IMG/VR virus record: IMGVR_UViG_3300006919_000264
Location: 1-30,384 of that record
Source of the DNA: a virus
DNA: 30,384 nucleotides
Direction: 5' to 3' (one strand)
Each line of letters opens with the position of its first letter. The first letter of the stretch is position 1. Of the stretch, positions 1,971-24,976 are shown piece after piece. The notes under the pieces are model-generated. The model was not told the DNA's origin. It made no database searches and saw only the letters and a program-made list of their open reading frames with translations. The translations under genes and the position numbers were made by a program.

Positions 1971-2000
1971 AAAAAAAATAACCACGCTGGGTGGTTATTT
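1971..2000 (-). terminator. Rho-independent terminator after the acidic protein gene
   Basis: A perfect 10-bp inverted repeat, AAATAACCAC and GTGGTTATTT, flanks a five-base loop and is followed on the minus strand by eight T residues. It ends transcripts arriving from the acidic protein gene. The predicted start of the next promoter (-10 at 2007-2002, start near 1995) falls inside its first arm, so locally started RNA would have only a 6-bp stem. Confidence 0.88.
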
Positions 2001-2001
2001 A

Positions 2002-2030
2002 ATTATAATATAGATTATGTGGTTTGTCAA
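2002..2030 (-). promoter_or_regulatory. Consensus sigma-70 promoter
   Basis: TTGACA at 2030-2025 and TATAAT at 2007-2002 are separated by exactly 17 bp. Both hexamers match the consensus perfectly. It begins one base after the stop codon of the acidic protein gene and would serve the genes at 1961, 1511 and 909. Predicted transcription start is near 1995. Confidence 0.85.
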
Positions 2031-2699
2031 CTACTTGGAGGTGATTCTGTTTAAAATCTTCTCGGCAAGTTCTTCAACCATGTTCTCTTTTTGGTTCTTC
2101 TCTTGAAGTCGAGCAGCTACGCGGCGTGCAACCTCGTTGACGATAGCATCTTCATCCAAGGACTCTTCCTCATCATCAGCTTCCATCATTGGCTCCTCGT
2201 CATCACCACCCATGTCCATGGCTGCATCACCCATATCATCGGCGGCGTCTTCCATATCGTCGGCAGCGTCTTCGTCGTCCATATCGACCTCGACCTCGTC
2301 ACCAAGGACATCCTCAAGTGCACGCTCAAGTGCGCCCATGAAGTCCTCAATTGCGACCATCTTGCCGGCGGCGGGGGCATCGCCCATGTCCATAGCATCA
2401 TCAGCCATGTCATCAGCAGCATCTTCCATATCATCTGCGGCATCGCCCAGATCCATGGCGTCCATCTCGTCGTCTTCTTCTCTCATGTCACGCATTCCGG
2501 GAGGATCTTCGTCCTCATCATCACGCATGCCGGGTGGCTCATCACGCATACCGGGGCGCATTCCACCCTCTTCCATTTCTTCTTCATCGCGCTTGGCGTG
2601 GTACATTTCTACGACCTTGGCATCACCTACTGGGCCAATGTTTGCAAGTTTAAGAAACTGACGTACTTCAGCTTCAGTAAGTAAAGTTTTACGGGACAT
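2031..2699 (-). CDS. Highly acidic Asp/Met-rich repeat protein, possible scaffold-like
   Basis: This 222-residue protein is dominated by Asp, Glu, Met and Ala. Three PGMRD motifs occur near residues 49-72, then two copies of a block built on DAADDMEDAADDM with DMG endings, one before and one after a short less acidic helical segment (around residues 110-138). The C-terminal 35 residues are a charged helix with Arg and Lys. Composition of this kind is seen in prohead core or scaffold proteins such as T4 gp67 and in disordered acidic phage proteins. No family can be assigned with certainty. The start at 2699 has AAGGAGAG upstream. It is the last gene before a strong terminator. Long frames on the opposite strand here are artefacts of the Asp-rich repeat. 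Confidence 0.8.
   Translation of the reverse strand: MSRKTLLTEAEVRQFLKLANIGPVGDAKVVEMYHAKRDEEEMEEGGMRPGMRDEPPGMRDDEDEDPPGMRDMREEDDEMDAMDLGDAADDMEDAADDMADDAMDMGDAPAAGKMVAIEDFMGALERALEDVLGDEVEVDMDDEDAADDMEDAADDMGDAAMDMGGDDEEPMMEADDEEESLDEDAIVNEVARRVAARLQEKNQKENMVEELAEKILNRITSK
2210..2447 (-). repeat. Imperfect direct repeat within the acidic protein gene
   Basis: Two blocks of about 62 bp, at roughly 2210-2277 and 2383-2447, encode nearly the same series of Asp, Ala and Met residues. Many differences between the copies are at third codon positions, so the protein repeat appears older than, or selected over, the DNA repeat. Confidence 0.75.
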
Positions 2700-2760
2700 T
2701 TAAATTTCTCTCCTTAATTAATGAAATTAAATTCTAGTATAAATAGTATTGTTTTTATCA

Positions 2761-3024
2761 TTAGCCCATATCTTTAAAAGAAAAAAGTTCTGAGTTTTTG
2801 ATTTTCTTGAGCGCGCCGGATTCTATTTGTTTAACGCGGGCAAACGAAATCTTTAGTCTATCGCCTATTTCTCTTAAAGTCATACGACCATTTTTATGAA
2901 TTGATATTAGACTACAGTTATATTCATCTCTGTAATCAATAAAGTATTTGCAGTCTAGTTTTGCGCACCTCTTCTGAGACCTGAGACACTCGCGACTGCA
3001 TTGTAGTAAGCCATCACCTCTCAT
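2761..3024 (-). CDS. Small Cys-rich protein with sigma-70 region 4-like helix-turn-helix
   Basis: The C-terminal half (residues about 43-76) reads as a sigma-70 region 4.2 helix-turn-helix: MTLREIGDRLKIS, then FARVKQIESGALKKIK. These match the usual layout of an LREIG first helix and a VKQIE recognition helix. The N-terminal half holds Cys9, Cys13, Cys20, Cys25 and Cys37, possibly a zinc-binding knuckle. There are no sigma regions 2 or 3, so it is not a complete sigma factor. It may bind -35 elements, replace host region 4, or act as an anti-sigma or co-activator. The ATG at 3024 overlaps the stop of the upstream gene; GGAGG lies further upstream than usual. It sits at the end of a long operon, consistent with a regulator of later expression. 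Confidence 0.8.
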   Translation of the reverse strand: MRGDGLLQCSRECLRSQKRCAKLDCKYFIDYRDEYNCSLISIHKNGRMTLREIGDRLKISFARVKQIESGALKKIKNSELFSFKDMG

Positions 3025-3347
3025 AAGTTTGGGTGTTCCTCCGAAATGAGATCAAAGATATCTTCTACCTGGTCCTCCGACAAGCCTAGATTGTGTACTA
3101 AGGCTTTACCGGCAGTTCTAGCTTTGATGTTTCTTTGTTTCTTTTCTTTTGATAAGTCACCGCTCTCAACCACATAGCTTCTGATTCTTTCATCATCAGA
3201 TAGATACCCAGAGATAAGCGAACGAAAAAACTTAGCTTGTGTCATTCCGTCGTTCTTTAGCTTGAGTGATAGCTGGGCGTGCCTGTGATCTGTATCGGTA
3301 AAGATTATTCTTTTGTTATTTTTTCCATAGTTGTTATCTTGGGACAT
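3021..3347 (-). CDS. Small conserved-looking protein, possible ribbon-helix-helix DNA-binding protein
   Basis: This protein has about 108 residues, counting from ATG 3347; a GTG at 3353 that overlaps the preceding stop is an alternative start. The core KRIIFTDTDHRHAQLSLKL, then MTQAKFFRSLISGYL, has the strand-helix-helix spacing of ribbon-helix-helix proteins, and the rest is charged and helical with the C-terminal EDIFDLISEEHP. This resembles hypothetical proteins I have seen in marine phage genomes. The DNA-binding idea is inference. It overlaps the sigma-region-4-like gene by four bases, and the two may be functionally linked. Confidence 0.7.
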   Translation of the reverse strand: MSQDNNYGKNNKRIIFTDTDHRHAQLSLKLKNDGMTQAKFFRSLISGYLSDDERIRSYVVESGDLSKEKKQRNIKARTAGKALVHNLGLSEDQVEDIFDLISEEHPNL

Positions 3348-3349
3348 TT

Positions 3350-4390
3350 TCACCAAGCCCTATTAAGAATATGTGTTCTGCTCTCTCCCAAGCCAGCGCT
3401 GGTCTGCATCACGAACTCAGAACTAGCGTGTAGCTCAGGAATACTGCGTGCGCCACTATACGATAAGCCTGACCGAAGACCTCTCTCTAGACTCTTAAGA
3501 ATCTTGGTGACAGAGCCCCGGTATGGTACACGTGCAGAAACTCCTTCGTGAGAAGAATACTTGCCACGCCAGCTAATTTGTGCTTCCTTACTTGCCATCC
3601 CTCGATAAGTCTTCCATCGAGTGCCATCAGCTTCTTCAAAGACATTACCCGGTGTTTCATCTGTGCCGGACAATATTGAACCACACATGATACAATCTGC
3701 ACCAGCGGCGAGGGCTTTTACCATATCGCCGGAGTTTCTTATACCACCATCAGCGATAATCGTAACATCGCGATCGGTCTCCGCACAATCTAAGACTGTC
3801 TGTAGACCAGCAACCCCGTGTCCGGTTTCGATCCTTGTTGAACAGATAGAGCCGCCGCCAATGTTACAGCGCACGGAATCAGCACCCCAATCAGCAAGGT
3901 CATTAATACCCTCAAGAGTGGCGATATTGCCAGCCATGATATGTAACTCATTACCAAAAGCACTTCTTAGTCTGTGGAGCGCATCCTTCGTTAGGATATG
4001 ATGCCCGTGAGCAACATCAACACACAGAAAATCAACACCCAAGGCATTCATGACAGCGGCTCGATTGAGGTAATCGCCGGTAACACCAATGGCAGCCCCC
4101 ACAATAATGTCAGTGTTGTGATCATCCATGGCAATATTCTTAGCCAAACTAATGATGTCAGCTTGTTCTTGGATAGTATTGTATCTGTGTACAATGGCAG
4201 CACCACCGTAGACACCGACCGAGACCGCCATGGCGGCTTCAGAGATAGTGTCCATGGGAGAAGCCAAAATTGGAACCTTTAACAAAAGACCGTTACCTAA
4301 ATCAACTTCCGTTGATACTTCAGATCGCGATCGAATGTCGGAATATTGTGGTACCAGCAATACGTCGTCGTATGATAATGATTTTTTCAT
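3350..4390 (-). CDS. IMP dehydrogenase / GMP reductase family enzyme without CBS domains
   Basis: This 346-residue TIM barrel opens with LSYDDVLLVPQYSDI, typical of the family. The active-site loop GGGSICSTRIETGHG carries the catalytic Cys183. Phosphate-binding ADGGIRNSGD and GADCIMCGS follow, then EGVSARVPYRG, GLRSGLSYSGA and EFVMQTSAGL near the end. The CBS pair of ordinary IMP dehydrogenase is absent, giving the length of GMP reductase. The mobile flap lacks the RY pair of IMP dehydrogenase and reads GKYSSHEG, closer to the GMP reductase pattern. The C-terminal AGLGES is more IMPDH-like. It acts on IMP, XMP or GMP with NAD(P) and would alter purine pools in the infected cell. Start ATG 4390 overlaps the preceding stop as ATGA. 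Confidence 0.92.
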   Translation of the reverse strand: MKKSLSYDDVLLVPQYSDIRSRSEVSTEVDLGNGLLLKVPILASPMDTISEAAMAVSVGVYGGAAIVHRYNTIQEQADIISLAKNIAMDDHNTDIIVGAAIGVTGDYLNRAAVMNALGVDFLCVDVAHGHHILTKDALHRLRSAFGNELHIMAGNIATLEGINDLADWGADSVRCNIGGGSICSTRIETGHGVAGLQTVLDCAETDRDVTIIADGGIRNSGDMVKALAAGADCIMCGSILSGTDETPGNVFEEADGTRWKTYRGMASKEAQISWRGKYSSHEGVSARVPYRGSVTKILKSLERGLRSGLSYSGARSIPELHASSEFVMQTSAGLGESRTHILNRAW

Positions 4391-4761
4391 AATGCCACCC
4401 TGTTTAAAAAATTGCAAATGTCACTGACCCGATACCAAGTTTTATCATTTGGATCCTCTGGTTCAGGAAGTAAGTGTAGCTTTGGTCGTCTATCTGAGAT
4501 GTGTGTATTCACAACAAAAATAGTCGGCACACCCTTAAATCTTAGCTTGTCTTCCAACTCAGGATAGTCGTCGATATTGTATGCAAAGAAGTGCATGTCT
4601 TTATATTCTTCTTTATTTGAGACATCTACAAAATAGTCCTTTAGATTGTGACAAAGGTGACAATTGTTAGAGTAAAACTTTAACACAAATGTGGAATTTT
4701 CTTTAATGTCGCCGCGCAATACATTATCAAGTGCATCACGCGAAATTCTAGTTACTGCCAT
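4387..4761 (-). CDS. Thioredoxin/glutaredoxin-like protein with CHLC active site
   Basis: This 124-residue protein has the thioredoxin fold pattern: a strand FVLKFYSNNC leading to C34-H-L-C37, a central strand FFAYNIDD, and the cis-proline loop KGVPTIFVV near residues 76-84. The active site is CHLC rather than the CGPC of thioredoxin. It could reduce the class II ribonucleotide reductase encoded at 16144-18111 or other phage proteins. That link is inferred, as the two genes are not adjacent. AAGGAGG lies upstream of the ATG at 4761. It overlaps the zinc-ribbon gene by 14 bases. Confidence 0.85.
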   Translation of the reverse strand: MAVTRISRDALDNVLRGDIKENSTFVLKFYSNNCHLCHNLKDYFVDVSNKEEYKDMHFFAYNIDDYPELEDKLRFKGVPTIFVVNTHISDRRPKLHLLPEPEDPNDKTWYRVSDICNFLNRVAL

Positions 4762-4993
4762 TTAATACCTCCTTGGCGGTGTCCATACAGTCAGGGCAAA
4801 ATAGTCTTACTACATCTTGCTTGACTACTACTGACCATGATTCTACCATTTCTTTATTCTTCTTGTCAAACTCTTTTTGACATATTCCGCATAGTTCCGG
4901 CATCTTTCCGAATTGTGCTACTTGGCTAGCCATCTTCTCTGAGGCTTCTGCACCAACTTGCTTCTTAACGGCTCTTCGTTGTTTCCGGTTCAT
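4748..4993 (-). CDS. Small zinc-ribbon protein of unknown function
   Basis: This 81-residue protein begins with a strongly basic MNRKQRRAVKK and contains CGICQ (Cys35 and Cys38) and, thirty residues on, CPDC. The two pairs form a probable four-Cys zinc ribbon. Similar small proteins occur in marine phage genomes, but I know of no defined function. The basic tail and zinc ribbon suggest nucleic-acid or ribosome binding. The ATG overlaps the stop of the methyltransferase gene as ATGA. Confidence 0.75.
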   Translation of the reverse strand: MNRKQRRAVKKQVGAEASEKMASQVAQFGKMPELCGICQKEFDKKNKEMVESWSVVVKQDVVRLFCPDCMDTAKEVLNGSN

Positions 4994-5463
4994 CGGTTCA
5001 TGGCTCCAAAGATTTGTCTTTGGTTTGAGCCATCGAAGACCACCACCGCAGACGGGAATGGTGCAGAGTTAGCGCTGTCGCCGAACTTAAGTCGCCCCTT
5101 GACAAAGTGGATCTCGTCAGCCTTCATGACATATTGGTGCCAATACTTTGTGTCAGTTCTCGCCGGGATCAACATCACCACTCGGGTGTTTTCGTTGCGA
5201 GATTCCTCGTAAGCCTTCTTAATCCACTTCTCGATGCCACGACCATACGGAGGGTTAATAAAGCTCGTATGCCCTGACCAACTATGTGATAGTCCGTCGT
5301 CTGCTTCGGTAAAGAACTTAGTGCACTTTGCGTTATCTGCGTCAGCGCAAGGGTCCAAGTCAAATGGACCGAAGCGCCAATTCAGCTTATTAAAGAAATC
5401 TTGCGGTGTTGCCCACTGTCCCGTTTTGGACGAGAACATTACCACTTGTGTTTGCTTGTTCAT
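4990..5463 (-). CDS. dam: Phage-type DNA N6-adenine methyltransferase (Dam family)
   Basis: This 157-residue protein matches the short phage Dam family. Its N-terminal QWATPQDFFNKLN precedes DLDPCAD (residues 35-41), the usual cofactor-site segment. The catalytic motif is NPPYGRGIEKW (residues 70-80), followed by the strand RVVMLIPARTDTKYWH and a C-terminal PFPSAVVVF. It transfers a methyl group from S-adenosylmethionine to adenine N6 in DNA, probably at a short site. AAGGAG precedes the ATG at 5463. It overlaps the next methyltransferase gene by 74 bases in a different frame, an unusually long overlap. Confidence 0.92.
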   Translation of the reverse strand: MNKQTQVVMFSSKTGQWATPQDFFNKLNWRFGPFDLDPCADADNAKCTKFFTEADDGLSHSWSGHTSFINPPYGRGIEKWIKKAYEESRNENTRVVMLIPARTDTKYWHQYVMKADEIHFVKGRLKFGDSANSAPFPSAVVVFDGSNQRQIFGAMNR

Positions 5464-7365: not shown

Positions 7366-7391
7366 CAAAACCTCCTAGTGACTACTCTTAA

Positions 7392-8121: not shown

Positions 8122-8136
8122 GTACCATAAGTAGTT

Positions 8137-8742: not shown

Positions 8743-8744
8743 GT

Positions 8745-13061: not shown

Positions 13062-13935
13062 TTAGTAACTCTAAAAATCTATCGGGTGAACCCTGAACAT
13101 TCGATAGAAGCCGGAGCATGCTCTCTTCGCTGTCGGTGTTAATCTTGATATTATGGTTCTCTGTTGTGAGTCCATTTCGACAGCGGTGCGTTTCGCGTCT
13201 GATGCTAGTTGTTCTAAAATCATAGTGCCTAGCCGTACCTTTCTTTGTGTATCCACTTAATTTCCCTCTCATTCCGTTGTCTTTCATAATTTTGAGCACC
13301 TTGAAGCGAGCCATCGTTTCTGAGTAGTCAAAATCTATTAGTTGCGACTCAGTTAACTTTGATACCGCACAAGCATCTCTAACAGGAGTATTTCCGTCAA
13401 TGCGGTCGGAACTATAAAACCATATCTCGCTGATAAAATCATCGCTTGTGTGTATAAAGTCGACTTCATGCTTGCCTCCACTATTGAACGCAATATAATC
13501 ATAACATATGTAACTATGTTCGTCAAGCTTGTTTTTACGAACAAAGCCGCTAGCGTTGGGATCTCCGAAATAATAGCACTTGTCGAACGACGCTTCAAAT
13601 ATCTTTGAGTAGTCATTTGAACAGACTATAGATTCTTCATTGCACCTAATCGTTTTGCACAAATTTGAAAGCGGTGTAAGCCCCCTTAAAGACAAGAGAA
13701 AATACAATCGATCCCATAAAACTTGCTTGCGTGTGCCAACCTCCATCTCGTCGTCAAACGACAGCAGCGTTTTTGCCTCACATGGTATACCGATTGGTGT
13801 GTGCTTGGGAGATAAAAAATCAAATCGGAAAGGTGTGTCAGGTTCCGTAAAAAACACCGGGTAATCATTTACATAAGCAAAGATTAGCGCCGACAACGAA
13901 CTACCGATAACAATGTTCTCGTATTCAAAAGCCAT
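13045..13935 (-). CDS. Unknown protein with N-terminal dinucleotide-binding-like motif
   Basis: This 296-residue protein starts MAFEYENIVIGSSLSALIFAY, which reads as the first strand, glycine/serine loop and helix of a Rossmann fold of the FAD/NAD type. No further flavoprotein motif is convincing. The rest is Cys, Tyr and Phe rich and unrecognised. It is co-transcribed with the nucleotidyltransferase-like gene and overlaps it. The ATG has no ribosome site and begins seven bases after the -10 CATAAT, so its mRNA is probably leaderless. The start codon also sits in the 3' arm of an inverted repeat. Confidence 0.75.
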   Translation of the reverse strand: MAFEYENIVIGSSLSALIFAYVNDYPVFFTEPDTPFRFDFLSPKHTPIGIPCEAKTLLSFDDEMEVGTRKQVLWDRLYFLLSLRGLTPLSNLCKTIRCNEESIVCSNDYSKIFEASFDKCYYFGDPNASGFVRKNKLDEHSYICYDYIAFNSGGKHEVDFIHTSDDFISEIWFYSSDRIDGNTPVRDACAVSKLTESQLIDFDYSETMARFKVLKIMKDNGMRGKLSGYTKKGTARHYDFRTTSIRRETHRCRNGLTTENHNIKINTDSEESMLRLLSNVQGSPDRFLELLNVTSP

Positions 13936-13951
13936 TTATATATTATGGCTT
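13929..13951 (-). promoter_or_regulatory. Inverted repeat covering the start codon
   Basis: AAGCCAT (13951-13945) and ATGGCTT (13935-13929) form a perfect 7-bp stem with a nine-base AT-rich loop. The 3' arm contains the ATG of the gene at 13935. The 5' arm overlaps the promoter -10, so only read-through RNA contains both arms. Four T residues follow, too few for a confident terminator. Confidence 0.65.
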
Positions 13952-13970
13952 ACTTTTTATCGCTTGTCAA
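13942..13970 (-). promoter_or_regulatory. Sigma-70-like promoter for a leaderless transcript
   Basis: TTGACA at 13970-13965 and CATAAT at 13947-13942 are 17 bp apart. The -35 lies in the last codons of the metzincin gene. The expected start is at or next to the A of the ATG at 13935. Confidence 0.8.
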
Positions 13971-14507
13971 GTCTCTTTTTCGAAGACCTTTTGAGTTGAA
14001 GCCACCATCTTTCCAGTTTGGGTGCATTATGTGTTGTCTTTCGCTATAGTGGCGCCAACCTAAAGCGTGCCCGAGTTCGTGTTCCAATACTCTCTCTTTT
14101 CTGCCATTCTTGGGTAATATGAATATTTTAGCCATCACGATCTTGCCCGTGCTGTTGCTGGTATACAATCTTGTTGCCGCCAGATGGTTTGCTGAAAATC
14201 CCCCCTCTGGCAAGGTTATTATGATTTCACCGTATCTGGGATTCATGCAATCCATAATAAAGTCTTTATATGCATACTCAAATTTATAGCCTAGGCGTTC
14301 CCAGTATTTTACAGCGTTTTCAACCCGATACATTGTTAATTGTGTGCTGGCACAAACCCTTACTTTCGGCGGTGTTTCCCATTCAGCTTTTCTAGTTGGC
14401 TTACCAATAACAAACGCATCAATCGGCTTTTGCTCCGAAACATAGATTATATTTTGCAATTCTGTACTAGAAATACAGCTCAGCAAGAACAGTAAAAGAA
14501 ACCCCAC
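13950..14507 (-). CDS. Secreted or lipoprotein metzincin-type zinc metalloprotease
   Basis: This 185-residue protein has the complete metzincin zinc motif HELGHALGWRH (His143, Glu144, His147, His153) followed by the Met-turn region QHIMHP (Met161). The N-terminus MGFLLLFLLSCISS is hydrophobic with a lipobox-like LLSC, so it may be exported or membrane tethered, although the signal is short and lacks basic residues. The only useful start is GTG 14507. It lies in the 3' arm of a terminator hairpin and about five bases past a possible -10, so leaderless translation or an error in the start must be considered. It could degrade envelope proteins, modify the host surface or act in virion entry. Confidence 0.82.
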   Translation of the reverse strand: MGFLLLFLLSCISSTELQNIIYVSEQKPIDAFVIGKPTRKAEWETPPKVRVCASTQLTMYRVENAVKYWERLGYKFEYAYKDFIMDCMNPRYGEIIITLPEGGFSANHLAATRLYTSNSTGKIVMAKIFILPKNGRKERVLEHELGHALGWRHYSERQHIMHPNWKDGGFNSKGLRKRDLTSDKK

Positions 14508-14529
14508 ACAATATATAGTGCTGTGTGGG
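14494..14529 (-). terminator. Terminator after dCMP deaminase
   Basis: CCCACACA (14529-14522) and TGTGTGGG (14510-14503) form a perfect 8-bp stem with an 11-base loop, followed on the minus strand by GTTTCTTTT. A candidate -10 lies inside the loop, so RNA begun there would lack the 5' arm. Confidence 0.78.
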
Positions 14530-16134: not shown

Positions 16135-16143
16135 TGTTTCTCC

Positions 16144-18111
16144 TTAAATTTCACAAGTGTCATTTGTACAGAATTTTGTACCCGAACCACCCTCTTCATC
16201 GTCGATTCGAGTGACGGGACTAATCTTGCTTGACATCTCTTCGTACTTCTCTTTTGTAATAGATTCGTATGGAGCTTGCACATATCCCGTCTCTTCATAC
16301 TTCAGGAAAGATACAGCCTTAAGTCTTGTCTCATACATTTCTAACGCGCTCCGAATCTGACTCGCCTCGCTTCCTTTAAACGAGACCGTAACAGACACTG
16401 CGTTATCCGCCCAATAATTTTGATATTGGGCTGCAATCTCAAGCTGCTCCCACATAGAAACATCTCGTTTTCCCTTTTCAAAGTGTGGCTCCTTGACAGG
16501 AAACTCAACAACAGAAGTGTTCGGAGAGTATGAATCATCTTCAACATTATAACCTGCTTTAATTAAACTTTTAAGAACTTTTGAAGTATTAGAGAATCTG
16601 ATTCGTCTAATGTAGTACTCGTCTTCTGGGAAATGAATTCCTGGAGTGGAGCCATTCAAGAGAGAGACGGTGCCTGATGGCTTAATCGAGGTCATCTTAA
16701 TAGACTTTGGAACGCAAAGCCAATTTGAATACTCGGTGTCTAACTCCTTAACGTAGCCGTACGCATTATCACACCAATCAAGCATCGTTCTACGACCATG
16801 CTTATTGAATGCCTGAATAATGCCAGACTGCGACAGTCCAATGCGTCGGTTCTTGAGCATCTTGGCGTTAGTTTCTGGCCAGTGTGTATTAACAAGCGTA
16901 ACAGTCTTGCCGTATAAGTATGCACACTTAAGCGTCTTTACATAGTCTTCATAATCATCATGCTTGGCTGGGAAGGTTTCGACGAGACAACACATCTCAG
17001 CGTTGTGAAGGCTTTGTTCAACACAAGGGTTAAAACCAACGACCTCGGCATCATCGTAATTAACACCGTCCTTAAAACGTCCATATGCTCTCGCGTTCTC
17101 AAGCCAGATCGTACCAGGCTCACCGTTTTCTTGAGACTGCTCAGCATGCCAAGTATAGTCCATGCCAACAGTAGCGTTGTAAGAGTTGTTAGAGCCCCAG
17201 CGATGATGGTACAGCTTTTCTTGATCATTCTTCATCTCAAGATAGCGGAAGTCGTCGGCATCACCGAGAGCGAGAGCAGCAGAGCGGCGTACATTTCCAG
17301 AGACCACACAGCGACCAATTAGGTTCTCGATGTCAACAATATCCACGGAAGTGATGGCTTCGCCAATCTTGTCTGAGAAAAGTTGCGTTAAGTTTTCATG
17401 AAGCTCGATGAGTGGACCGGGACCGCTTGACGTGCCACCAAAGCCGCTAATTAAAGCGCCCAACGGTCGAATAGCAGAGTAGTCAAACTTAGGAACCTTG
17501 TGTCCGAAAAAGAAACCATTAAGAAGTGTTTGTACAGAGTTAACCCACCCTTCGCGCGAATCATCAATCACAAGTACGTCATTTGTATATTCTGGCTCTT
17601 CGAATGTAATCGTGCCAGCACCCTTCGTGTCAAAACCGACACCAACACCAACCATTAGAGCATCCATAATCCAACTAAAGATATAGCCGCCCTTGGTAGA
17701 GAGGTCCTGAGTTGACCTGAAAGCGCAGTTAAACAAAGCAGCGCCGGTGCGCTCTTCAACAAATTTGGTACCCATCATCCACAATCCACGACCGGGCGGT
17801 GTCCACTTAAGATTGAATAATCTATCAAATGCATCCTTAGCAGTTTTTTGTGCTTTGTTATCATTCCACTCCAGACCAAGTCTAACAACATGCTGTTTTT
17901 GCATATTAAACATGCCTTCAATAACACGACGGCAAGTTTGCCACCATTCTTCGGAACCCTTCGCTTCCGGATCAAACTCGCTAAGACGGCGAGCGTATGT
18001 ACGTTTAAAAGTTACGTAGCCGAGCGGACCCCAAGGGACTTCTGCGGTTGTATATGGTTCAATAAAAGAATCAGATAATCTGAATCTGCGGATGTTTTCG
18101 ATAGTTTTCAT
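16144..18111 (-). CDS. nrdJ: Adenosylcobalamin-dependent class II ribonucleoside-triphosphate reductase
   Basis: This 655-residue protein is of the monomeric class II type. The active-site loop is NPCVEQ (residues 361-366) with Cys363 as the thiyl-radical Cys and Glu365 as general acid/base. Cys129 in LFNCAF and Cys374 in NAEMCC match the redox pair by spacing. SGNVRRSA and KPSGTVSLLNGSTPG are conserved substrate and phosphate-binding segments. The C-terminal tail has FCTNDTCEI, a CX4C swinging pair for re-reduction. It makes deoxynucleotides using vitamin B12, so the host must supply or take up cobalamin. The thioredoxin-like protein at 4387 may be its reductant. The ATG overlaps the helicase stop as ATGA. 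Confidence 0.95.
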   Translation of the reverse strand: MKTIENIRRFRLSDSFIEPYTTAEVPWGPLGYVTFKRTYARRLSEFDPEAKGSEEWWQTCRRVIEGMFNMQKQHVVRLGLEWNDNKAQKTAKDAFDRLFNLKWTPPGRGLWMMGTKFVEERTGAALFNCAFRSTQDLSTKGGYIFSWIMDALMVGVGVGFDTKGAGTITFEEPEYTNDVLVIDDSREGWVNSVQTLLNGFFFGHKVPKFDYSAIRPLGALISGFGGTSSGPGPLIELHENLTQLFSDKIGEAITSVDIVDIENLIGRCVVSGNVRRSAALALGDADDFRYLEMKNDQEKLYHHRWGSNNSYNATVGMDYTWHAEQSQENGEPGTIWLENARAYGRFKDGVNYDDAEVVGFNPCVEQSLHNAEMCCLVETFPAKHDDYEDYVKTLKCAYLYGKTVTLVNTHWPETNAKMLKNRRIGLSQSGIIQAFNKHGRRTMLDWCDNAYGYVKELDTEYSNWLCVPKSIKMTSIKPSGTVSLLNGSTPGIHFPEDEYYIRRIRFSNTSKVLKSLIKAGYNVEDDSYSPNTSVVEFPVKEPHFEKGKRDVSMWEQLEIAAQYQNYWADNAVSVTVSFKGSEASQIRSALEMYETRLKAVSFLKYEETGYVQAPYESITKEKYEEMSSKISPVTRIDDEEGGSGTKFCTNDTCEI

Positions 18112-19493
18112 TTTGATGTTCCTTTAAATTTTTGATACTTCGATTGTAAGTAATTTCTCTGCATTTTCGGTGTTAACGCCACCGGGCTTGTTACCACTGC
18201 GTTTGCTGCTGTGGCTGTAACCGCGTTTGTTTTCGGCAATACTCTAATTTTGACGTTAGAGGTATCCATAAATATATCATAGACCATCCCATCGGGTCCA
18301 TTTCTGTTCTTGGCTATGAAAATTTTTCCAGTGTTGTTCTGTTTATCGTCGATTGTTCGGGAGACAGAGAAGATAAAGTCTGCAACGAAGCACTTATTAA
18401 ACGCTTCGGAGATTTGCTCCATTGTGATCACCTCGGCGTTCAAGCCCGATCGGTTTGTTTGAGATGCGGTCCATATAGGGCATCCAAATTCAGTTGATAA
18501 GCCTCTTAACTCTTCATAGATAGACTCTAGCTCATTTCGCTTTTCTTTGCGCACCACTGTTGGCTTGAGCAAGTCTGCGTAATCTACGATAATCATACCG
18601 GGTTCAATGCCTCTTTTCGTAAGCTTGTTAAGATGGTTTCTTATTGTAGCAGTCGAAGCTGATTTTGTAGGATATTCTTTAACAATTAATCTCCCATCTA
18701 GATCTTTAATCTTCTCGTAGATATCTTCTTTGAACACATCGAGTTCTGAAAGGGGGAATTCCGTGATACAGCTATCATATCTTTTGCCGATTACCGTGTC
18801 CTGTAGCTCTAAGGTGTAGTGGACTACTGTTTTACCTTCCATGATCGCGTTCGATCCAAGATGTACCAAAACCATTGACTTGCCAGCACCTGTCGGCGCA
18901 ACTACCACACCAAGCTCAGATTTGCCCAATCCGCCACCAGTCATATCATCAACCTCTTTCCACCCAGTTGTAACGGGTCCGCGGAAACGAGGCTTATATC
19001 TTTCTTCGAAATCTGCCAGAAAGTCATGACCGAAATTAGACTCAGAACCGAGCTTAAGCGACTCGTTGATAATCTTTGAAATCTCATCAAAAGAATTTGA
19101 TTGAAGAAGTTCTACAGACTTCAGCATCGCCTCTTTTAAATTCTGCTTACGACAAAACTCAAGCGATTGTTCTTTAATGTATTCTGAGCCGTCAATTTCG
19201 CTGGAGCGAATCTTAGTGAAATATTCCGTAATCTGCTGGGAGAGAACTTTGTCTTCTTTCTCCAGTTCGGTCTGCAGGATGGTGTCAATAATCTGTTGAG
19301 ATGGGTGCTTGGCGTAGCGATCTCTGTAATCTACTATCTTTGATGTGAAGAGTCGCAGATATTCAAGTTCCAAAAAGTTAACGTCCAGAACTTCTAATAT
19401 CTGATCTGCGAACGGTCGGTCGTCCAAGATAAGATGCACTAGATCTTCTTGAAAGCTTTTTCCATATTTGCTGAAACTTGGTTTGTTAGACAA
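18108..19493 (-). CDS. dnaB: DnaB/gp41-like replicative helicase
   Basis: This 461-residue protein has the helicase core TGWKEVDDMTGGGLGKSELGV, Walker A APTGAGKS (199-206), the strand VVHYTLEL, Walker B region GMIIVDYADLL and IWTASQTNRSG. The N-terminal 150 residues are helical, as in the DnaB/gp41 N-terminal domain. It is the 5'-3' hexameric helicase at the fork. Start is TTG 19493, with GGGAGGG five bases upstream and no nearby in-frame ATG. The C-terminus past about 425 is low in conservation and ends with a basic tail. It is placed between the exonuclease and the ribonucleotide reductase. Confidence 0.95.
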   Translation of the reverse strand: MSNKPSFSKYGKSFQEDLVHLILDDRPFADQILEVLDVNFLELEYLRLFTSKIVDYRDRYAKHPSQQIIDTILQTELEKEDKVLSQQITEYFTKIRSSEIDGSEYIKEQSLEFCRKQNLKEAMLKSVELLQSNSFDEISKIINESLKLGSESNFGHDFLADFEERYKPRFRGPVTTGWKEVDDMTGGGLGKSELGVVVAPTGAGKSMVLVHLGSNAIMEGKTVVHYTLELQDTVIGKRYDSCITEFPLSELDVFKEDIYEKIKDLDGRLIVKEYPTKSASTATIRNHLNKLTKRGIEPGMIIVDYADLLKPTVVRKEKRNELESIYEELRGLSTEFGCPIWTASQTNRSGLNAEVITMEQISEAFNKCFVADFIFSVSRTIDDKQNNTGKIFIAKNRNGPDGMVYDIFMDTSNVKIRVLPKTNAVTATAANAVVTSPVALTPKMQRNYLQSKYQKFKGTSK

Positions 19494-19509
19494 TTGTACC
19501 CTCCCGGTG

Positions 19510-19538: not shown

Positions 19539-19539
19539 G

Positions 19540-20508
19540 TCAACACGACAATAAAATTTTATTGAGGTGTGTTTTGAGATCTTCCCAGTTAAGTTCACCG
19601 AAACCATCCTCGGTCATAAGTGAGAGTATCTTAGTTTTATTAAATGTGCAGTCAAAGTTTTCAATGGACTCTTGCACAAACTTTTTAGCTTGAACTGAGA
19701 GTAGAGGTGCGTACAACTGCATCATTTTATAATTATGTGAGATAAGTCCTTTCCCCTCGATGATGTTGCTAAAAAACTTCAATTTACTGTCCGCTTTTTC
19801 GCAGAAATCTACTAACTCGTTGATAGTATAGTCTTTTTCCGAAGCGAGAAAAGACAACCTTTTTTTGACCGAAACTAGTCCGGCACCTTTGATCCCTGGT
19901 AGGTTGTCTGAGGCATCTCCGACTATCGCCCTTGCCAATGCCATGTTTGTAGGGTGTACACCATATTCTTCAATGATCCGCTTCTTGTTCATCAGCTGAT
20001 CGCTCGTTGGTCGATATACAACAGTCTCATCATCACACAACTGTAGGAAGTCCTTATCATTGGATATGATGACCTTTTGCCAGCCATCATAGCGGCTCAT
20101 CCTAGACGTAAACGAGATCACATCGTCCGCCTCAATTTCAGGCAACATGAGTTGAATAATTGGCATCTCATTGAAGTAATCAACAACGCGAGATTGCTGC
20201 CATATCTTGTTCATAACGATTTGGTCATCTGTGAGGTTATGCACCGACCTGTTTAGTCTCAGGGGCTTTCTACCCTCTTTATAACTCTTATCGATGCTCT
20301 TACGCTTAGCCGAGCCATTTGGTCCATCCCAGATTACCAAGATTTCATCTGGCTGCGTCATTCGCACTAGCTTTTGCATAATCTTAATCGTGCCCTTAAT
20401 GCCACCGATCGGATCTCCATTCGTTGACAAAGAAGGATCCACGATATACGCTCGAATAAACATATTTAATGCGTCAATGATTATGACGCGCTTTCTTTCA
20501 GTACTCAT
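19540..20508 (-). CDS. 5'-3' exonuclease of the FEN / T4 RNase H family
   Basis: This 322-residue protein has the family's acidic sites: IIIDALNMFIRAY (Asp12), VIWDGPNGSAKRK, PEIEADDVISF and IISNDKDFLQL. A helix-three-turn-helix follows with GDASDNLPGIKGAGLVSVKKRL. It removes RNA primers and 5' flaps during lagging-strand synthesis. The start at 20508 is preceded by GGAGGG, which is also the 3' arm of the terminator stem, followed by seven T residues and then the ATG. The ribosome site is therefore masked in read-through RNA but free in RNA from the promoter at 20560-20532. Confidence 0.94.
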   Translation of the reverse strand: MSTERKRVIIIDALNMFIRAYIVDPSLSTNGDPIGGIKGTIKIMQKLVRMTQPDEILVIWDGPNGSAKRKSIDKSYKEGRKPLRLNRSVHNLTDDQIVMNKIWQQSRVVDYFNEMPIIQLMLPEIEADDVISFTSRMSRYDGWQKVIISNDKDFLQLCDDETVVYRPTSDQLMNKKRIIEEYGVHPTNMALARAIVGDASDNLPGIKGAGLVSVKKRLSFLASEKDYTINELVDFCEKADSKLKFFSNIIEGKGLISHNYKMMQLYAPLLSVQAKKFVQESIENFDCTFNKTKILSLMTEDGFGELNWEDLKTHLNKILLSC

Positions 20509-20551
20509 AAAAAAACCCTCCGATTGATAATATTATAACCAACCGGAGGGT
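20509..20551 (-). terminator. Terminator after recA, masking the next ribosome site
   Basis: ACCCTCCG (20551-20544) and CGGAGGGT (20522-20515) make a perfect 8-bp stem around a 21-base loop that can add three more pairs. Seven T residues (20515-20509) follow, then the ATG. The 3' arm is the ribosome site of the exonuclease gene. A promoter -10 lies in the loop. Confidence 0.83.
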
Positions 20552-20560
20552 CAAAGTCAA
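20532..20560 (-). promoter_or_regulatory. Strong sigma-70-like promoter nested in the terminator
   Basis: TTGACT at 20560-20555 and TATAAT at 20537-20532 are 17 bp apart. The predicted start near 20525 is past the 5' arm of the terminator hairpin, so its RNA escapes termination and has a free GGAGGG site. Confidence 0.85.
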
Positions 20561-20570
20561 GCACTTTTGT

Positions 20571-21716
20571 TCATTCTTTTATTGGAACCGAAATATCTTC
20601 CGGATCCTCGTAATAAGTGCTAGCATCGCCTTGTCGCTTATCAAACTTCTGCACAATCTCTTCATCCATAATCTGGATTACTTTGTTCTTGAACTCTTCG
20701 TCTGAAGTTACAAGGCTGGTCCATTTTGAAGGCTGGAACTTCTTAGTGTATCCATCGGGCATTGACAGTGTATACCAAGCTCCTGCTGATGAAAGGTGTT
20801 CGCAGCCCTTAATAGCATCGAACCACGATTCTTCATCACGAATTCCAACATCTTCAGTCCCCCACATGATACGGAAGGCACACGACCTGCCTTGAGTCCC
20901 AAAACGGGATTTCTCAAGCTTTACCTTAACTTCGGAGCCAATGCGGAAACCCTTTTCATCTTCAATAAAAGCAGACTTAGCCTTTCGACCGGTCAACCAA
21001 ATACGAAGTGAATAAGCATAGTGCATTGCCTTACCACCAGGGGTGATATAAGGTGTAGTCATAGCGATTTGTCGCGCCATCGGACCTTGTGGGATGTTTG
21101 TCTTCAATTGGTTCAATACAATGAAAGTTGCTCGCTTATCAGCAATGGGAATAACCAACTTGGACATACCCTTTGCTAAAATACGAGCCTTCACTGCCAT
21201 TGAAGACTGTGGGTTGAAGTCTCCTTCAACGTCCGAGATTGATGGCGTGAATGCCAAAGAATCCCAGATAAATACAAGCTGCTCGTCGGTTGCTCCAAGA
21301 AGTTCTTCAATAGTCTCAAGGACAAACTCCACAGAAGACGCCTGAACGTACATTAAACGCTCTAGGTTGCATCCTGCTCGCTCCAAGAACATCGGGTCGA
21401 TGGCAGACTCCGAATCGAAGTAAACGACCATCTTGCCCTCTTTCTGGGCGTTTGCTGCAATCTGCACAGCCATGTATGATTTACCAGTTGCTTCAAGTCC
21501 GGCAATCTCGGTGATCTTGCCAACCGGAATACCGGCAACTTTACCCTTACAAATAATAGAATCCAACCAACGTGATCCCGTTGGAATCCATTCCTTAACA
21601 GAAGTCGGGTTATCTCCTGTTAAGTCGTGAGCCACATTCTGACCCGCTTTCTTATTTACCAGTTTCATTAGGTCTTGCATATTTACACGACCTGCCTTTG
21701 CTTTCGCTTTAGCCAT
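20571..21716 (-). CDS. recA: RecA/UvsX-type recombinase
   Basis: This 381-residue protein has Walker A GLEATGKS (73-80), VVYFDSESAID, Walker B LVFIWDSLAF, the DNA-binding loop 1 region DVEGDFNPQSSMAVKAR, and FIVLNQLKTNIP followed by TTPYITPGGKAMHYAYSLRIWL for loop 2 and the core end. It forms filaments on single-stranded DNA for strand exchange and recombination-dependent replication. The basic MAKAKAKAGR start is typical. AGAGGAG precedes the ATG. It is the first gene after a promoter whose spacer is a palindrome. Confidence 0.96.
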   Translation of the reverse strand: MAKAKAKAGRVNMQDLMKLVNKKAGQNVAHDLTGDNPTSVKEWIPTGSRWLDSIICKGKVAGIPVGKITEIAGLEATGKSYMAVQIAANAQKEGKMVVYFDSESAIDPMFLERAGCNLERLMYVQASSVEFVLETIEELLGATDEQLVFIWDSLAFTPSISDVEGDFNPQSSMAVKARILAKGMSKLVIPIADKRATFIVLNQLKTNIPQGPMARQIAMTTPYITPGGKAMHYAYSLRIWLTGRKAKSAFIEDEKGFRIGSEVKVKLEKSRFGTQGRSCAFRIMWGTEDVGIRDEESWFDAIKGCEHLSSAGAWYTLSMPDGYTKKFQPSKWTSLVTSDEEFKNKVIQIMDEEIVQKFDKRQGDASTYYEDPEDISVPIKE

Positions 21717-21740
21717 TTTGGCTCCTCTTAGTTATTTGTT

Positions 21741-21769
21741 ATAATACCACTGTATATTAGTGGAGTCAA
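21741..21769 (-). promoter_or_regulatory. recA promoter with palindrome filling the spacer
   Basis: TTGACT at 21769-21764 and TATTAT at 21746-21741 are 17 bp apart. The whole spacer is the inverted repeat CCACT-seven bases-AGTGG, placed where a repressor would block RNA polymerase. The plus strand reads ACTGTATAT here, like one LexA half-site. Confidence 0.8.
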
Positions 21770-21776
21770 GTATTAT

Positions 21777-22919
21777 TTATACGCCAGCTAATTTATATAA
21801 AGCTGGACCTGTTTCAAGGTAGTTCCTCATCAGGACACCATACTTTTTTGATCCCCCAGACTTCCCTGAAGCCCTTTCTACTTTTGCTCTCATTTGCACA
21901 AGGACGCTTTTATTTCCCGCCGCGTCCTCGTATATGATTTGAATCTTGGGATAAGAGCCGGAAGTGTTGATAATGGGGTATAGGTTTGCTTTTTCCATCT
22001 CGGAGTAAAACTTTTTACCAAATCTCGCCCTCTTAAAGCCACCGGGTAAAATTTTCACCAACTCAACAAACTCTGATTCTGGTCCAACAGCACCAGTCTT
22101 TATGTAGTCCGCTAATAACTTGACAAATTCAGCCTCAAATTTATCATCCCGTAGCTTTGATTCTAGAGTTTTGTACGCTTGCTGATATATCAGGCTTGTC
22201 GCACTAGAAGCCATTTGCAGGTAGCCTCCAGCATTAATCTCTTCGCGTGACGAAAAGGGCTTACCAGCTGGTATGCTATCAACAATGCTGTTGTATTCTT
22301 GCTCGGCGTTTGATACGTCAATGCCAAGAGGCTCCCAAAAGGCTTTTTGAACCTCAAAAGCTTTCCCGGTCTTTTGAGCAAATTGTTCGCCCCCCTTTAC
22401 CTTTAACGACAGTTGGTTTCTTAATTTATTGCCATCTACGATTATTGATATGTCTACCTTAGTTCCTTTTTGATCCTCTGTTCCCGCTGCTTTTACCAGT
22501 ATGTTGTTTGATTTTTTGTTCGATGCGAGGCGTGTTGCAAACTTGTGCATCGGGGGACTATTCACATAGCTCACAGCTCCTTCATACTCACCCTGCAAAC
22601 AGGCTAAAAGATTCTTGTCTACAAGAGCTTCAAAGGGGCGCTTGGGCATTGAAATAGAGAAACTAACAGTATCTTCGTGCTCATCACTGAAGTCTGGAAC
22701 CACGTTGCTAACAACAGTATTCATATCCTGAATACTTGCCACCTGAGCGATAACATCAGACACGCTTATCATTTCTATTTTACCGTTTACTCTCTTTGAA
22801 AGTTTAGCAGCAATGGCAGCAGCCACCACACCTTCGGCAATATCGCCTCGATTTGGTAACTTGCATTTTTGTTCTGTTAGGTATGAATCCCAACTCTCAA
22901 TAATCTTTTTCATTTCCAT
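21777..22919 (-). CDS. Unknown protein with possible nuclease-fold residues
   Basis: This protein has 380 residues. Near the N-terminus WDSYLTEQK precedes GDIAEGVVAAAIAAKL with Glu29; D156 occurs in KVDISIIVDG and K173 in LSLKVKGGEQF. The order Glu, Asp, then a strand ending in Lys recalls degenerate PD-(D/E)XK enzymes. The partial protein at 1-909 has the same order. No firm family is recognised. The ATG at 22919 overlaps the methylase stop as TAATG; the ATG at 22913 is better spaced from AAGGGG and may be the real start. Its place after the Dam-type methylase makes a DNA-related role reasonable but unproven. Confidence 0.75.
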   Translation of the reverse strand: MEMKKIIESWDSYLTEQKCKLPNRGDIAEGVVAAAIAAKLSKRVNGKIEMISVSDVIAQVASIQDMNTVVSNVVPDFSDEHEDTVSFSISMPKRPFEALVDKNLLACLQGEYEGAVSYVNSPPMHKFATRLASNKKSNNILVKAAGTEDQKGTKVDISIIVDGNKLRNQLSLKVKGGEQFAQKTGKAFEVQKAFWEPLGIDVSNAEQEYNSIVDSIPAGKPFSSREEINAGGYLQMASSATSLIYQQAYKTLESKLRDDKFEAEFVKLLADYIKTGAVGPESEFVELVKILPGGFKRARFGKKFYSEMEKANLYPIINTSGSYPKIQIIYEDAAGNKSVLVQMRAKVERASGKSGGSKKYGVLMRNYLETGPALYKLAGV

Positions 22920-23716
22920 TACCCCTTAATTAGTATCTCAGATGACTGTTTACTCTTGTTCATACCATAAGTCCACTGAGCTTCGATAATTTCGTAATCT
23001 TTATACATCTCTCTTATCTCCGGGCAGTCATTATACGACATAAGCCATTGACCGCGGTTTGTCAAGAGTGAATGTAATCTTTCATGATCAAACGAGCTGT
23101 GTAGATTACCGTCAACACCATATAGCGAGTTTTGTGAACCCTCAAGCATATAAGGAGGATCAAGATATAAAAAAGCCCTTGGGTGATACTCAATGGCATC
23201 ACCAAAGTCAGCGTAATCTACTCTAAAGTTTTTACGCTTAAAATCTCTAAGTCTTTGGACTGACGAATCAGTGAATCTTGCGTATGAGGCTCTCTCAGAC
23301 CATCCCCCGCTAAAAGTAGCGCCAGAGAAACTTGCTCTATTAATAGCGTAATACTTCGCTGCTCTTTCGTAAGAGAACATAAACGTATCAGTCATCAAGT
23401 CTTGGCGATACTGGTGGAATGACTCCTTAGAGCAACCGGTAACCGTTTCCCCGTTTCTAATTATATACTGTTCTCGCAGGCTCTCTACTTCGTCAGCTAA
23501 GCGTGTGTTATCTTCACACAGAGCCATCCAGAACCATACAAGCTGCTTCATCTTGTCGTAACCAAACACTTCAGTGCCACGGTTAGCTAAAGCAAGCTCT
23601 ACCGAACCACCCCCGAAGAATGGAGAGCAAACACGCTCGACACTTTCGGGAATATGAGGTAGGATATGCTTAATGGCGCGCGATTTACCGCCAGGATATC
23701 GCAATGGTGTCTTCAT
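22919..23716 (-). CDS. dam: D12-class DNA adenine methylase (Dam)
   Basis: This 265-residue protein starts MKTPLRYPGGKSRA and has the cofactor motif PFFGGGSVE (residues about 32-40) and the catalytic DPPY (186-189). This order is that of the alpha-class Dam/D12 family, whose usual site is GATC. An upstream GTG at 23740 would add eight residues but lies in the terminator stem. ATG 23716 has GAGGG upstream and fits the family start. It is the third DNA methyltransferase in the window. Phage enzymes of this class protect DNA from host restriction or mark replicated genomes. Confidence 0.94.
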   Translation of the reverse strand: MKTPLRYPGGKSRAIKHILPHIPESVERVCSPFFGGGSVELALANRGTEVFGYDKMKQLVWFWMALCEDNTRLADEVESLREQYIIRNGETVTGCSKESFHQYRQDLMTDTFMFSYERAAKYYAINRASFSGATFSGGWSERASYARFTDSSVQRLRDFKRKNFRVDYADFGDAIEYHPRAFLYLDPPYMLEGSQNSLYGVDGNLHSSFDHERLHSLLTNRGQWLMSYNDCPEIREMYKDYEIIEAQWTYGMNKSKQSSEILIKG

Positions 23717-23725
23717 CAAGCCCTC

Positions 23726-23756
23726 AAAAAAATGGCACACATTAACCGGTGTGCCA
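23726..23756 (-). terminator. Rho-independent terminator after the Thr/Glu-rich gene
   Basis: TGGCACAC (23756-23749) and GTGTGCCA (23740-23733) form a perfect 8-bp stem with an eight-base loop, followed by seven T residues on the minus strand. The ribosome site of the Dam gene comes directly after the T tract, and no good promoter is visible in between. Confidence 0.85.
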
Positions 23757-23766
23757 GCGGCTGCAG

Positions 23767-24042
23767 CTACTCTGTTACAGCATCAGTAGCTGTGGTTTCC
23801 GTTGTGGGTGTGGGGGTATTTTCCTCTACTGTGGAAGTTGTGACTTCCTCGGTAGAAGTGGTAGCGGAAACCTCGACTGTGGTGGTCGCCTCCACTGTTT
23901 CGGCTGCAGAAGTGTTTTCACTAACCTCTGCTGCTGGCGGCTCGAAGCTGCATTGTCCGTAAGTGGTGGCAACGACAAGCGCTCCTGCCACAAAACTAAC
24001 TTGCACCTTCCAGCGTGCTAACATTGACTTCAACCATTCCAT
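23767..24042 (-). CDS. Membrane-anchored or exported Thr/Glu-rich low-complexity protein
   Basis: This 91-residue protein starts MEWLKSMLARWK, a basic N-terminus, followed by a hydrophobic stretch at about residues 14-30 ending TYGQC. The remaining 60 residues are Thr, Glu, Val, Ser and Ala with repeated ATTTVE and TTSTVEE motifs and no other hydrophobic segment. It could be a type II or lipid-anchored envelope protein with an extended tail outside the membrane. The function is unknown. Superinfection exclusion or a lysis accessory role is conceivable. AAGGAG lies upstream of the ATG. It is flanked by two similar hairpin cassettes, as a moron gene would be. Confidence 0.75.
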   Translation of the reverse strand: MEWLKSMLARWKVQVSFVAGALVVATTYGQCSFEPPAAEVSENTSAAETVEATTTVEVSATTSTEEVTTSTVEENTPTPTTETTATDAVTE

Positions 24043-24072
24043 AATATAATCTCCTTGTTTATAGAATAATGC

Positions 24073-24099
24073 GGCACCCTATTCCTAAGCCGGGGTGCC
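24073..24099 (-). terminator. GC-rich hairpin after the SSB gene, weak or partial terminator
   Basis: GGCACCC (24099-24093) and GGGTGCC (24079-24073) form a 7-bp stem around 13 bases. No T tract follows; GCATTATTC comes next. It may attenuate rather than stop transcription, or protect the 3' end of SSB mRNA. Confidence 0.6.
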
Positions 24100-24116
24100 A
24101 GCGGCTATCTAACAAG

Positions 24117-24893
24117 CTACTTAGTTGCCATCAATTCATCAAAAGCCGCATCTACGGGATTGACAGTGGGCTCTGTGTTATTATATTTGCTCGTCTCGGT
24201 GGAGCGAGACTCAGCAGAGGCACCACTCGCCAATTGCTCATCTAGGATGGCGTCAATTTGTTCGGGGGTTAGACGCTCGAAGAGTGAGTCAATATCGGGG
24301 ATGCCGTCTAGGAGGGCGGGGATGGCCTCAGTGTCCTCCAGTAGAGCAGATGTGTTTCGACGCATCTTAAGGCTTGTTTGTGGGTATGCACCCGGCGTTG
24401 TTGGCTTTGTGTAAACCAACGAAATGTCAGTTCCTTCAAGAGTATCAGTGATGTCCCCGTATTCTGGGTCCAAAATGTATCCGAGAAGCAACTCGTAAGC
24501 TCTCTTTCCGTAACCGTAAACCTTTACTCCCTCAGTTTCGCGTCCTCGGACGACTACCGGTGAGAAGTAACGTGCACGTACAAAGAGAGACTTTGCAAGC
24601 TTTTTGGATTCTTCGTCATTTTGATCGCTTCCTTCTCGCCAAAGCTGAGAAGCAAAGTCACAAATCGGACAGCGCTCACCATAATTGCGCTTAGGGCATG
24701 GAATACCGCCCCTGTGATCTCCAACGTTGTAGTGGAAATACATTTCCTTCAGGGGGTCTCCGTCTGCGGTTGGTACAATCCGAATAGTTTGGTCGCCTTC
24801 ATCAGGCTTGAACCATACGGAGTTACCATCCCCCTTATCCTCGCCACGAAGTTGGGCAAGTTTCTTTCTCATTAGTTCCATATTGATTGACAT
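24117..24893 (-). CDS. gp32-like single-stranded DNA-binding protein
   Basis: This protein has 258 residues. The core has a zinc site: His54 or His60, then CPKRNYGERCPIC (Cys66, Cys75, Cys78), as in T4 gp32, where one His and three Cys bind zinc. Aromatic and basic residues around KSLFVRARYFSPVVV fit an OB fold. The C-terminal 60 residues are acidic, Ser/Thr rich and end DAAFDELMATK, typical of the tail that contacts replication partners. It coats single-stranded DNA for the polymerase, helicase and RecA here. A 48-base leader with a hairpin precedes the ATG. T4 gp32 regulates its own translation through its leader, so similar control is possible. Confidence 0.92.
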   Translation of the reverse strand: MSINMELMRKKLAQLRGEDKGDGNSVWFKPDEGDQTIRIVPTADGDPLKEMYFHYNVGDHRGGIPCPKRNYGERCPICDFASQLWREGSDQNDEESKKLAKSLFVRARYFSPVVVRGRETEGVKVYGYGKRAYELLLGYILDPEYGDITDTLEGTDISLVYTKPTTPGAYPQTSLKMRRNTSALLEDTEAIPALLDGIPDIDSLFERLTPEQIDAILDEQLASGASAESRSTETSKYNNTEPTVNPVDAAFDELMATK

Positions 24894-24924
24894 TAGTTTT
24901 TTCTCCTATTTGTTTGTTTAAAGT

Positions 24925-24945
24925 ATATCGAGCTTTCCTCGATAT
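24925..24945 (-). promoter_or_regulatory. Hairpin in the SSB leader
   Basis: ATATCGAG (24945-24938) and CTCGATAT (24932-24925) form a perfect 8-bp stem with a five-base loop. No T tract follows. The predicted start near 24941 falls in the 5' arm, leaving about four pairs in locally started RNA. Confidence 0.7.
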
Positions 24946-24947
24946 CT

Positions 24948-24976
24948 AATGTATCACTCTTGTTCTAGCTTGTCAA
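24948..24976 (-). promoter_or_regulatory. Sigma-70-like promoter for SSB
   Basis: TTGACA at 24976-24971 and TACATT at 24953-24948 are 17 bp apart. The -35 lies within the last codons of the upstream gene, whose TGA is at 24956-24954. Confidence 0.75.

Follow-up and report, generated by a model that had tools for sequence, protein, structure and literature searches.

Probable nested promoter-terminators at two gene junctions of an uncultured marine phage

Can a promoter and a transcription terminator share one short stretch between two genes, so that the downstream gene answers to its own promoter only? This question is raised by the virus record IMGVR_UViG_3300006919_000264, whose 30,384 bases (the window, meaning the whole stretch analysed) are probably a genome fragment. 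Judged by its protein families, the source is a tailed phage, an uncultured marine virus of bacteria. A first-pass annotation of the DNA had proposed that a promoter is interleaved with an inverted repeat at five gene junctions, here called J1 to J5, the genes of which all lie on the minus strand. We conclude that J4 (20560-20509), and J1 (2030-1971) in a looser geometry, are probably nested promoter-terminators, at which the downstream gene would be expressed only from its own promoter. Our comparative set consisted of loci from single-gene scans of IMG/VR, which holds several hundred relatives for single window genes, and of related records taken whole. A Megablast search against cultured phages gave no DNA-level match to the window, and Rfam 15 gave no match at the gathering score.

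The clearest case is J4, where promoter and hairpin lie in the 62-nt intergenic space behind the uvsX gene (Table 1). The promoter, TTGACT-17-TATAAT, agrees with the sigma-70 consensus at 11 of 12 positions, has a spacer of 17 nt and is conserved in relatives. The hairpin (-22.1 kcal/mol) is stable, G+C-rich and followed directly by the T tract, as expected of an intrinsic terminator. Because its 5' arm lies entirely upstream of the -10 element, RNA made from the J4 promoter cannot carry that arm; such RNA would start AAUCGGAGGGUUUUUUUAUG, with the 3' arm acting as a Shine-Dalgarno (SD) sequence.

We examined this arrangement in 158 related loci, which reduce to 78 distinct units. Counting units with at least 10 pairs spanning the -10 element proved uninformative, since about half of the shuffled sequences also pass, and we therefore adopted an energy-gap test and an arm-swap test. 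As a control we used a sigma-70 promoter 5' of the helicase gene (18108-19493), which is kept in many relatives without a nested hairpin. The median folding energy was -24.1 kcal/mol for the read-through RNA of J4 and -4.5 kcal/mol for the local RNA. In 67 of the 78 units the gap was -12 kcal/mol or lower; among shuffled units 6.5% reached this value, and for the helicase promoter in these phages 1 of 65 did (median gap -19.5 for J4, -4.4 for the control promoter). When arms were swapped between units, the score fell from 25.0 for own arms to 18.0 (standard deviation 0.44, maximum 19.5), and none of 2000 permutations reached the own-arm score; as related sequences are not independent, such permutation figures are not strict probabilities, and the helicase promoter of the same loci, which showed no effect (own 11.1, swapped 11.5), is the better control. 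Likewise, double changes occurred at 9 of 11 stem pairs among 26 units picked for diverse stems. The covariation score was 0.444, compared with 0.270 for shuffled sequences (0/500 as high) and at most 0.218 for slid controls, and is itself lowered because MAFFT misregisters some stems. Folding, arm swapping and pair counts thus exclude chance or mere sequence conservation for J4.

What is kept among the relatives is the geometry. The J4 stems vary widely (CCCTCCGATTG, CCCTGATC, CCCCATCCA, CCTCCCACATTTA, CCCCCCCGACAC and others), while the -35 element, spacer and -10 element stay constant, and unrelated stems (CCCTGATC, CCCCATCC, CCTCCCAC, CCCCCCCGA) share a common geometry with a spacer of 17-18. 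In all 72 units that have the hairpin, the pairs spanning the -10 element have their 5' bases upstream of the predicted start, and the spacer is nearly always 17. The unit follows uvsX in most relatives, directly or past an inserted gene; in contigs with such an insertion it sits 284-352 nt further downstream, ahead of the following gene. The gene behind the unit differs among relatives. By an automatic measure, 49 of the 72 hairpins have at least five T in the 8 nt past the stem, a lower estimate because the measure puts the end of the stem in the wrong place in some units (e.g. L474).

At J1 the same elements are arranged less tightly. The promoter, TTGACA-17-TATAAT, matches the sigma-70 consensus at 12 of 12 positions and is conserved in relatives. 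The hairpin AAATAACCAC-ccagc-GTGGTTATTT (2000-1976) folds at -9.8 kcal/mol; its stem is only moderately G+C-rich, and with its T tract it has the form of an intrinsic terminator. In 96 of 96 homologous loci (65 distinct sequences, about 32-100% protein identity), the promoter and the 5' arm of a hairpin adjoin or overlap. These promoters mostly have 11-12 of 12 matches, and typical arms are TATAATAACCAC...GTGGTTATTTTTTT; the relatives L176, L550 and L589 have stems of unrelated sequence. Median energies were -20.0 kcal/mol for read-through RNA and -5.5 kcal/mol for local RNA, and the swap test gave 25.3 for own arms versus 21.1 for swapped ones (standard deviation 0.31).

The sequences themselves show the anatomy, its conservation and covariation, and the constancy of the geometry; from these we infer start positions, termination and effects on translation at both junctions. 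In the proposed mechanism, one stretch of 50-60 bp would serve both as sigma-70 promoter and as intrinsic terminator. Polymerase coming from an upstream promoter would copy the entire element, and in its RNA the downstream arm would pair with the arm copied from the promoter spacer at J4, or with that copied from just past the -10 element at J1. The U tract after the paired arms would terminate this read-through RNA, and in transcripts that escaped, the ribosome site would be paired in most J4 lineages. RNA from the nested promoter would start within the 5' arm at J1, and at J4 in the loop region or beyond it; lacking part of the 5' arm (J1) or all of it (J4), it would not be terminated, and at J4 it would open with a free SD sequence. 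Folding and conservation, with predicted starts, thus lend good support at J4, and support at J1, to the earlier proposal that the full hairpin is carried only by read-through RNA, local RNA missing some or all of the 5' arm. Its further claim, that every block is insulated, holds in part: read-through expression would be blocked but promoter occlusion would not, because upstream polymerase passes over the promoter before reaching the terminator.

Several observations weigh against this mechanism. The start sites at J4 and J1 are predictions from consensus spacing. In about 20 J4 units the T tract is short or broken up, and a number of these may hide the ribosome site instead of terminating. 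Pairing across the -10 element is lost in 6 of the 78 J4 units. In the J1 relatives L550 and L589, the predicted local RNA retains a structure of -14 to -16 kcal/mol beside the T tract, which escape from termination does not explain.

It could be asked whether terminator and promoter merely crowd a short intergenic space, each conserved for itself without coupling. The 62 nt available at J4 and the need of a compact genome for both elements speak for this idea, yet most strong terminators of related phages are not nested. Among 114 strong terminators in eight related records, 13 have a nested promoter-like site, nearly all of them J1 or J4 orthologues, which indicates that nesting belongs to particular junctions and is not a general feature. 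The same phages also use the ordinary order of terminator, then promoter (L026, L030), and the J4 geometry is fixed as described above. We consider uncoupled packing unlikely, and the consequences of nesting hold whatever its origin.

Somewhat less likely still is control at the level of translation alone, in which the read-through hairpin would work by hiding the ribosome site, with the T tract a mere spacer between SD and ATG and with little termination. There is precedent in phage T4, where hairpins accompany the late genes e (lysozyme), soc, I-TevI, I-TevII, I-TevIII and segB, as also mobE of phage Aeh1; the hairpin is present only on transcripts from upstream promoters, and the local RNA lacks its 5' part and is translated (PMC2988022, PMC3014915). 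Our J4 and J1 units resemble these by folding and predicted starts, in that the hairpin is confined to read-through RNA with the local promoter inside. An SD-like motif also lies within the 3' arm in 64 of the 72 J4 hairpin units, 20 of which have a T tract that the automatic measure rates as weak, and these 64 would hide the ribosome site in the T4 manner. J1 and several J4 lineages would not: five J4 units have a T tract without SD in the 3' arm, the hairpin and T tract are kept with the SD downstream of the hairpin in L021, L023, L024, L052 and L069, and at J1 the SD is outside the hairpin in all relatives of the window. The two systems differ further. T4 uses late promoters (TATAAATA, recognised with gp55; the soc leader has TATAAATA within its hairpin), whereas J4 and J1 have -35 and -10 elements of the sigma-70 type, the -10 lying within the loop at J4 and beside the 5' arm at J1. 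The described T4 hairpins hide the ribosome site and are not terminators, whereas most hairpins here have a T tract. Read-through RNA should be unproductive in either type of J4 lineage, and the terminator form is the commoner one.

Very improbable is a role of the inverted repeat as DNA, either as operator of a dimeric protein or as a cruciform or single-strand hairpin promoter. The centre of the repeat does lie near the -10 element, where a repressor or an extruded hairpin could act. We rejected this explanation because pairing persists between arms whose sequences have nothing in common from one lineage to another, which rules out a shared operator sequence, and because U-G pairs are frequent in the J4 stem, which fits RNA rather than DNA pairing; the T tract, moreover, is one-sided, as in an RNA terminator. 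Chance overlap of common motifs, promoter-like matches being frequent in the window (57 found, 40 expected), is refuted for J4 and J1 and next to negligible as a general account, J4, J1 and J5 hairpins being conserved with covariation, while it is the likely account of J2 and of the promoter half of J3.

The remaining three junctions behave differently from J4 and J1. At J5 the promoter is real and conserved, and both hairpins covary (swap tests 17.3 versus 15.5, standard deviation 0.26, and 18.2 versus 12.7, standard deviation 0.56); the second is absent in one group of relatives. No U tract follows at J5, where ACTTTA or a similar sequence comes next, and since the ribosome site also lies outside the hairpins, J5 is not a terminator. 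We can only guess that its hairpins are RNA processing sites of read-through transcripts. The J3 hairpin is a plain intrinsic terminator, retained through G-U changes in two near relatives; its -35 candidate TTGAAA has become TCTGAAA in both, and no -10 element at J3 passes the consensus filter. We rejected J3 as a nested promoter-terminator, its promoter being unsupported. J2 was rejected on conservation: its promoter is kept in five near relatives, of which one retains the hairpin (13951-13929) and the rest have lost it. Of the five junctions annotated as interleaved, J4 and J1 are thus strongly upheld, J5 partly, as an arrangement of another kind, whereas the promoter of J3 and the hairpin of J2 fall away. 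Conservation of hairpins alongside the flanking genes follows the same division: it holds for J4 and J1 and fails for J2; the J3 hairpin is found in near relatives only, and the J5 hairpins are kept without a terminator tail. The argument that repetition speaks against chance is borne out for J4 and J1, whose orthologues make up nearly all nested cases, and J2 is left as a likely chance overlap.

Table 1. Features at the five junctions of the window (J1 to J5)
Feature	Positions	Strand	Basis or remark
J4 -35 element TTGACT	20555..20560	-	first five bases invariant in 26-sequence alignment
J4 5' arm CCCTCCGGTTG, within 17-nt promoter spacer	20540..20550	-	covariation
J4 -10 element TATAAT, in hairpin loop	20532..20537	-	
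J4 predicted transcription start, loop/3' arm boundary	20525	-	placed 7 nt past -10
J4 3' arm CAATCGGAGGG, includes Shine-Dalgarno GGAGGG (20521-20516)	20516..20526	-	
J4 T tract (seven T), doubles as Shine-Dalgarno-to-ATG spacer; ATG at 20508	20509..20515	-	
Gene upstream of J4, UvsX/RecA-like recombinase	20571..21716	-	PHROG 97, E 5.9e-60
Gene downstream of J4, 5'-3' exonuclease family	19540..20508	-	PHROG 107, E 6.8e-27
J1 -35 element TTGACA	2025..2030	-	
J1 -10 element TATAAT, one base upstream of hairpin	2002..2007	-	
J1 5' arm AAATAACCAC, holds predicted start ~1995	1991..2000	-	
J1 3' arm GTGGTTATTT	1976..1985	-	
J1 T tract (eight T), overlapping 3' arm end	1971..1978	-	
J1 Shine-Dalgarno GGAG, then ATG at 1961	1970-1967	-	
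Gene upstream of J1, acidic protein with conserved ends, near head maturation protease; putatively scaffold-like	2031..2699	-	scaffold-like from position
Gene downstream of J1, small protein with hydrophobic N-terminus	1572..1961	-	no family found
J5 promoter TTGACA-17-TACATT of single-stranded-DNA-binding-protein gene	24948..24976	-	real, conserved
J5 hairpin a, ACTCTTG (24980-24974) with CAAGAGT (24962-24956), brackets/overlaps -35	24956..24980	-	swap test
J5 hairpin b, ATATCGAG (24945-24938) with CTCGATAT (24932-24925), starts right after -10	24925..24945	-	swap test
Gene downstream of J5, single-stranded-DNA-binding protein	24117..24893	-	PHROG 1192, E 4.3e-24
J3 intrinsic terminator hairpin CCCACACAG / TTGTGTGGG, T-rich tail 14501-14494	14503..14529	-	
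J2 promoter TTGACA-17-CATAAT, beside start codon at 13935	13942..13970	-	kept in five near relatives

None of 29 strong terminators in T4 (50 kb) and lambda has a nested promoter, and SPO1 (50 kb) has one weak nested case among 18. A scan of bacterial genomes for CCTCC-TATANT-GGAGG-TTTT gave at least 83 matches; among the 83 listed, a -35 element of at least 5/6 occurs at a spacing of 15-18 in 10 and at 18 other spacings in 5. The corresponding scan of viral contigs, for GCCCC-TATANT-GGGGC-TTTT, gave 41 distinct matches, with five -35 elements at a spacing of exactly 17, representing about three independent cases, and four at 21 other spacings. These pattern scans suggest that the nested architecture may be in wider use. 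Intergenic terminator hairpins with a -10 element in the loop and a -35 element at 17-18 nt were seen in the bacterial contigs L346 and L372 (Anaerostipes), L323 (Oscillospiraceae) and L329 (Lentisphaerae), one Anaerostipes example lying upstream of a gene with a putative lactate/malate dehydrogenase-like translation. Among viral contigs, L611/L628, L608/L650 and L595 have the nested architecture with GCCCC/GGGGC arms, before an exonuclease-like gene and other genes.

Compared with intrinsic (Rho-independent) terminators in general, the units share the G+C-rich hairpin and T tract between genes and differ in that loop and 5' arm hold the promoter elements of the next gene, unlike other strong terminators of the same phages. 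A bacterial terminator near a promoter can allow the terminated polymerase to reinitiate there (PMC11347151); here the elements are nested instead of neighbouring, and the promoter lies upstream of the termination point. Promoter occlusion or such polymerase recycling would be testable consequences of this order. In the literature searched, which left out most subscription journals, we found no precedent for such conserved nesting of a sigma-70 promoter within an intrinsic terminator. The terminator version, with its internal sigma-70 promoter, thus appears to be new, while the principle of a hairpin on read-through RNA only is already known from T4.

More speculatively, and with considerable doubt, the unit could be a switch or relay: heavy upstream transcription would occlude the promoter and yield no downstream RNA, the gene coming on as upstream transcription wanes, or the terminated polymerase would be returned to the promoter some 20-30 bp away, the same architecture recurring in other phages and bacterial chromosomes as a general compact element.

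Other features of the window were recorded alongside. Its protein families include DNA polymerase, a UvsX-like recombinase, a DnaB-like helicase, ribonucleotide reductase, head maturation protease and single-stranded-DNA-binding protein. The nearest cultured-phage homologues of the ribonucleotide reductase (16144-18111) are from actinobacteriophages, at 46.7% identity, which hints at an actinobacterial host. The gene at 3350-4417 encodes a dehydrogenase (PHROG 9582, E 2.6e-90), which we take to be of the IMP dehydrogenase/GMP reductase kind, unusual for a phage. A matrixin-like metallopeptidase (PF00413, E 8.9e-6) is found at 13950-14507, flanked by a dCMP deaminase gene and a gene of no assigned kind. 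Around uvsX, the promoter at 21769 has a small hairpin in its spacer and the region upstream is highly variable among relatives; in L011 and L012 a tRNA-like candidate with a CAT anticodon lies immediately 5' of uvsX. Two hairpins at 24100-24072 and 23756-23733 share the motif CGCTGGCAC-CCGG...GTGCC or GTGTGCC, which in most relatives reappears 5' of uvsX in the form GCCGCTGGCAGACCGGT..AAAGTCTGCCGC; T-rich tails follow, a promoter is mostly absent, and loop conservation is unusually high for a terminator.

Nested sites such as J4 and J1 would be misread by gene-boundary predictions in which promoter and terminator are taken to be separate neighbours. The nested unit also offers a compact design idea for transcriptional insulation, and the variation between lineages, in which the T tract may or may not be joined by a hidden ribosome site, provides a natural series for comparing transcriptional with translational blocking. 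As the covariation in a large group of marine phages indicates, a strong promoter and a terminator can share 50-60 bp and be kept together over long evolutionary times.

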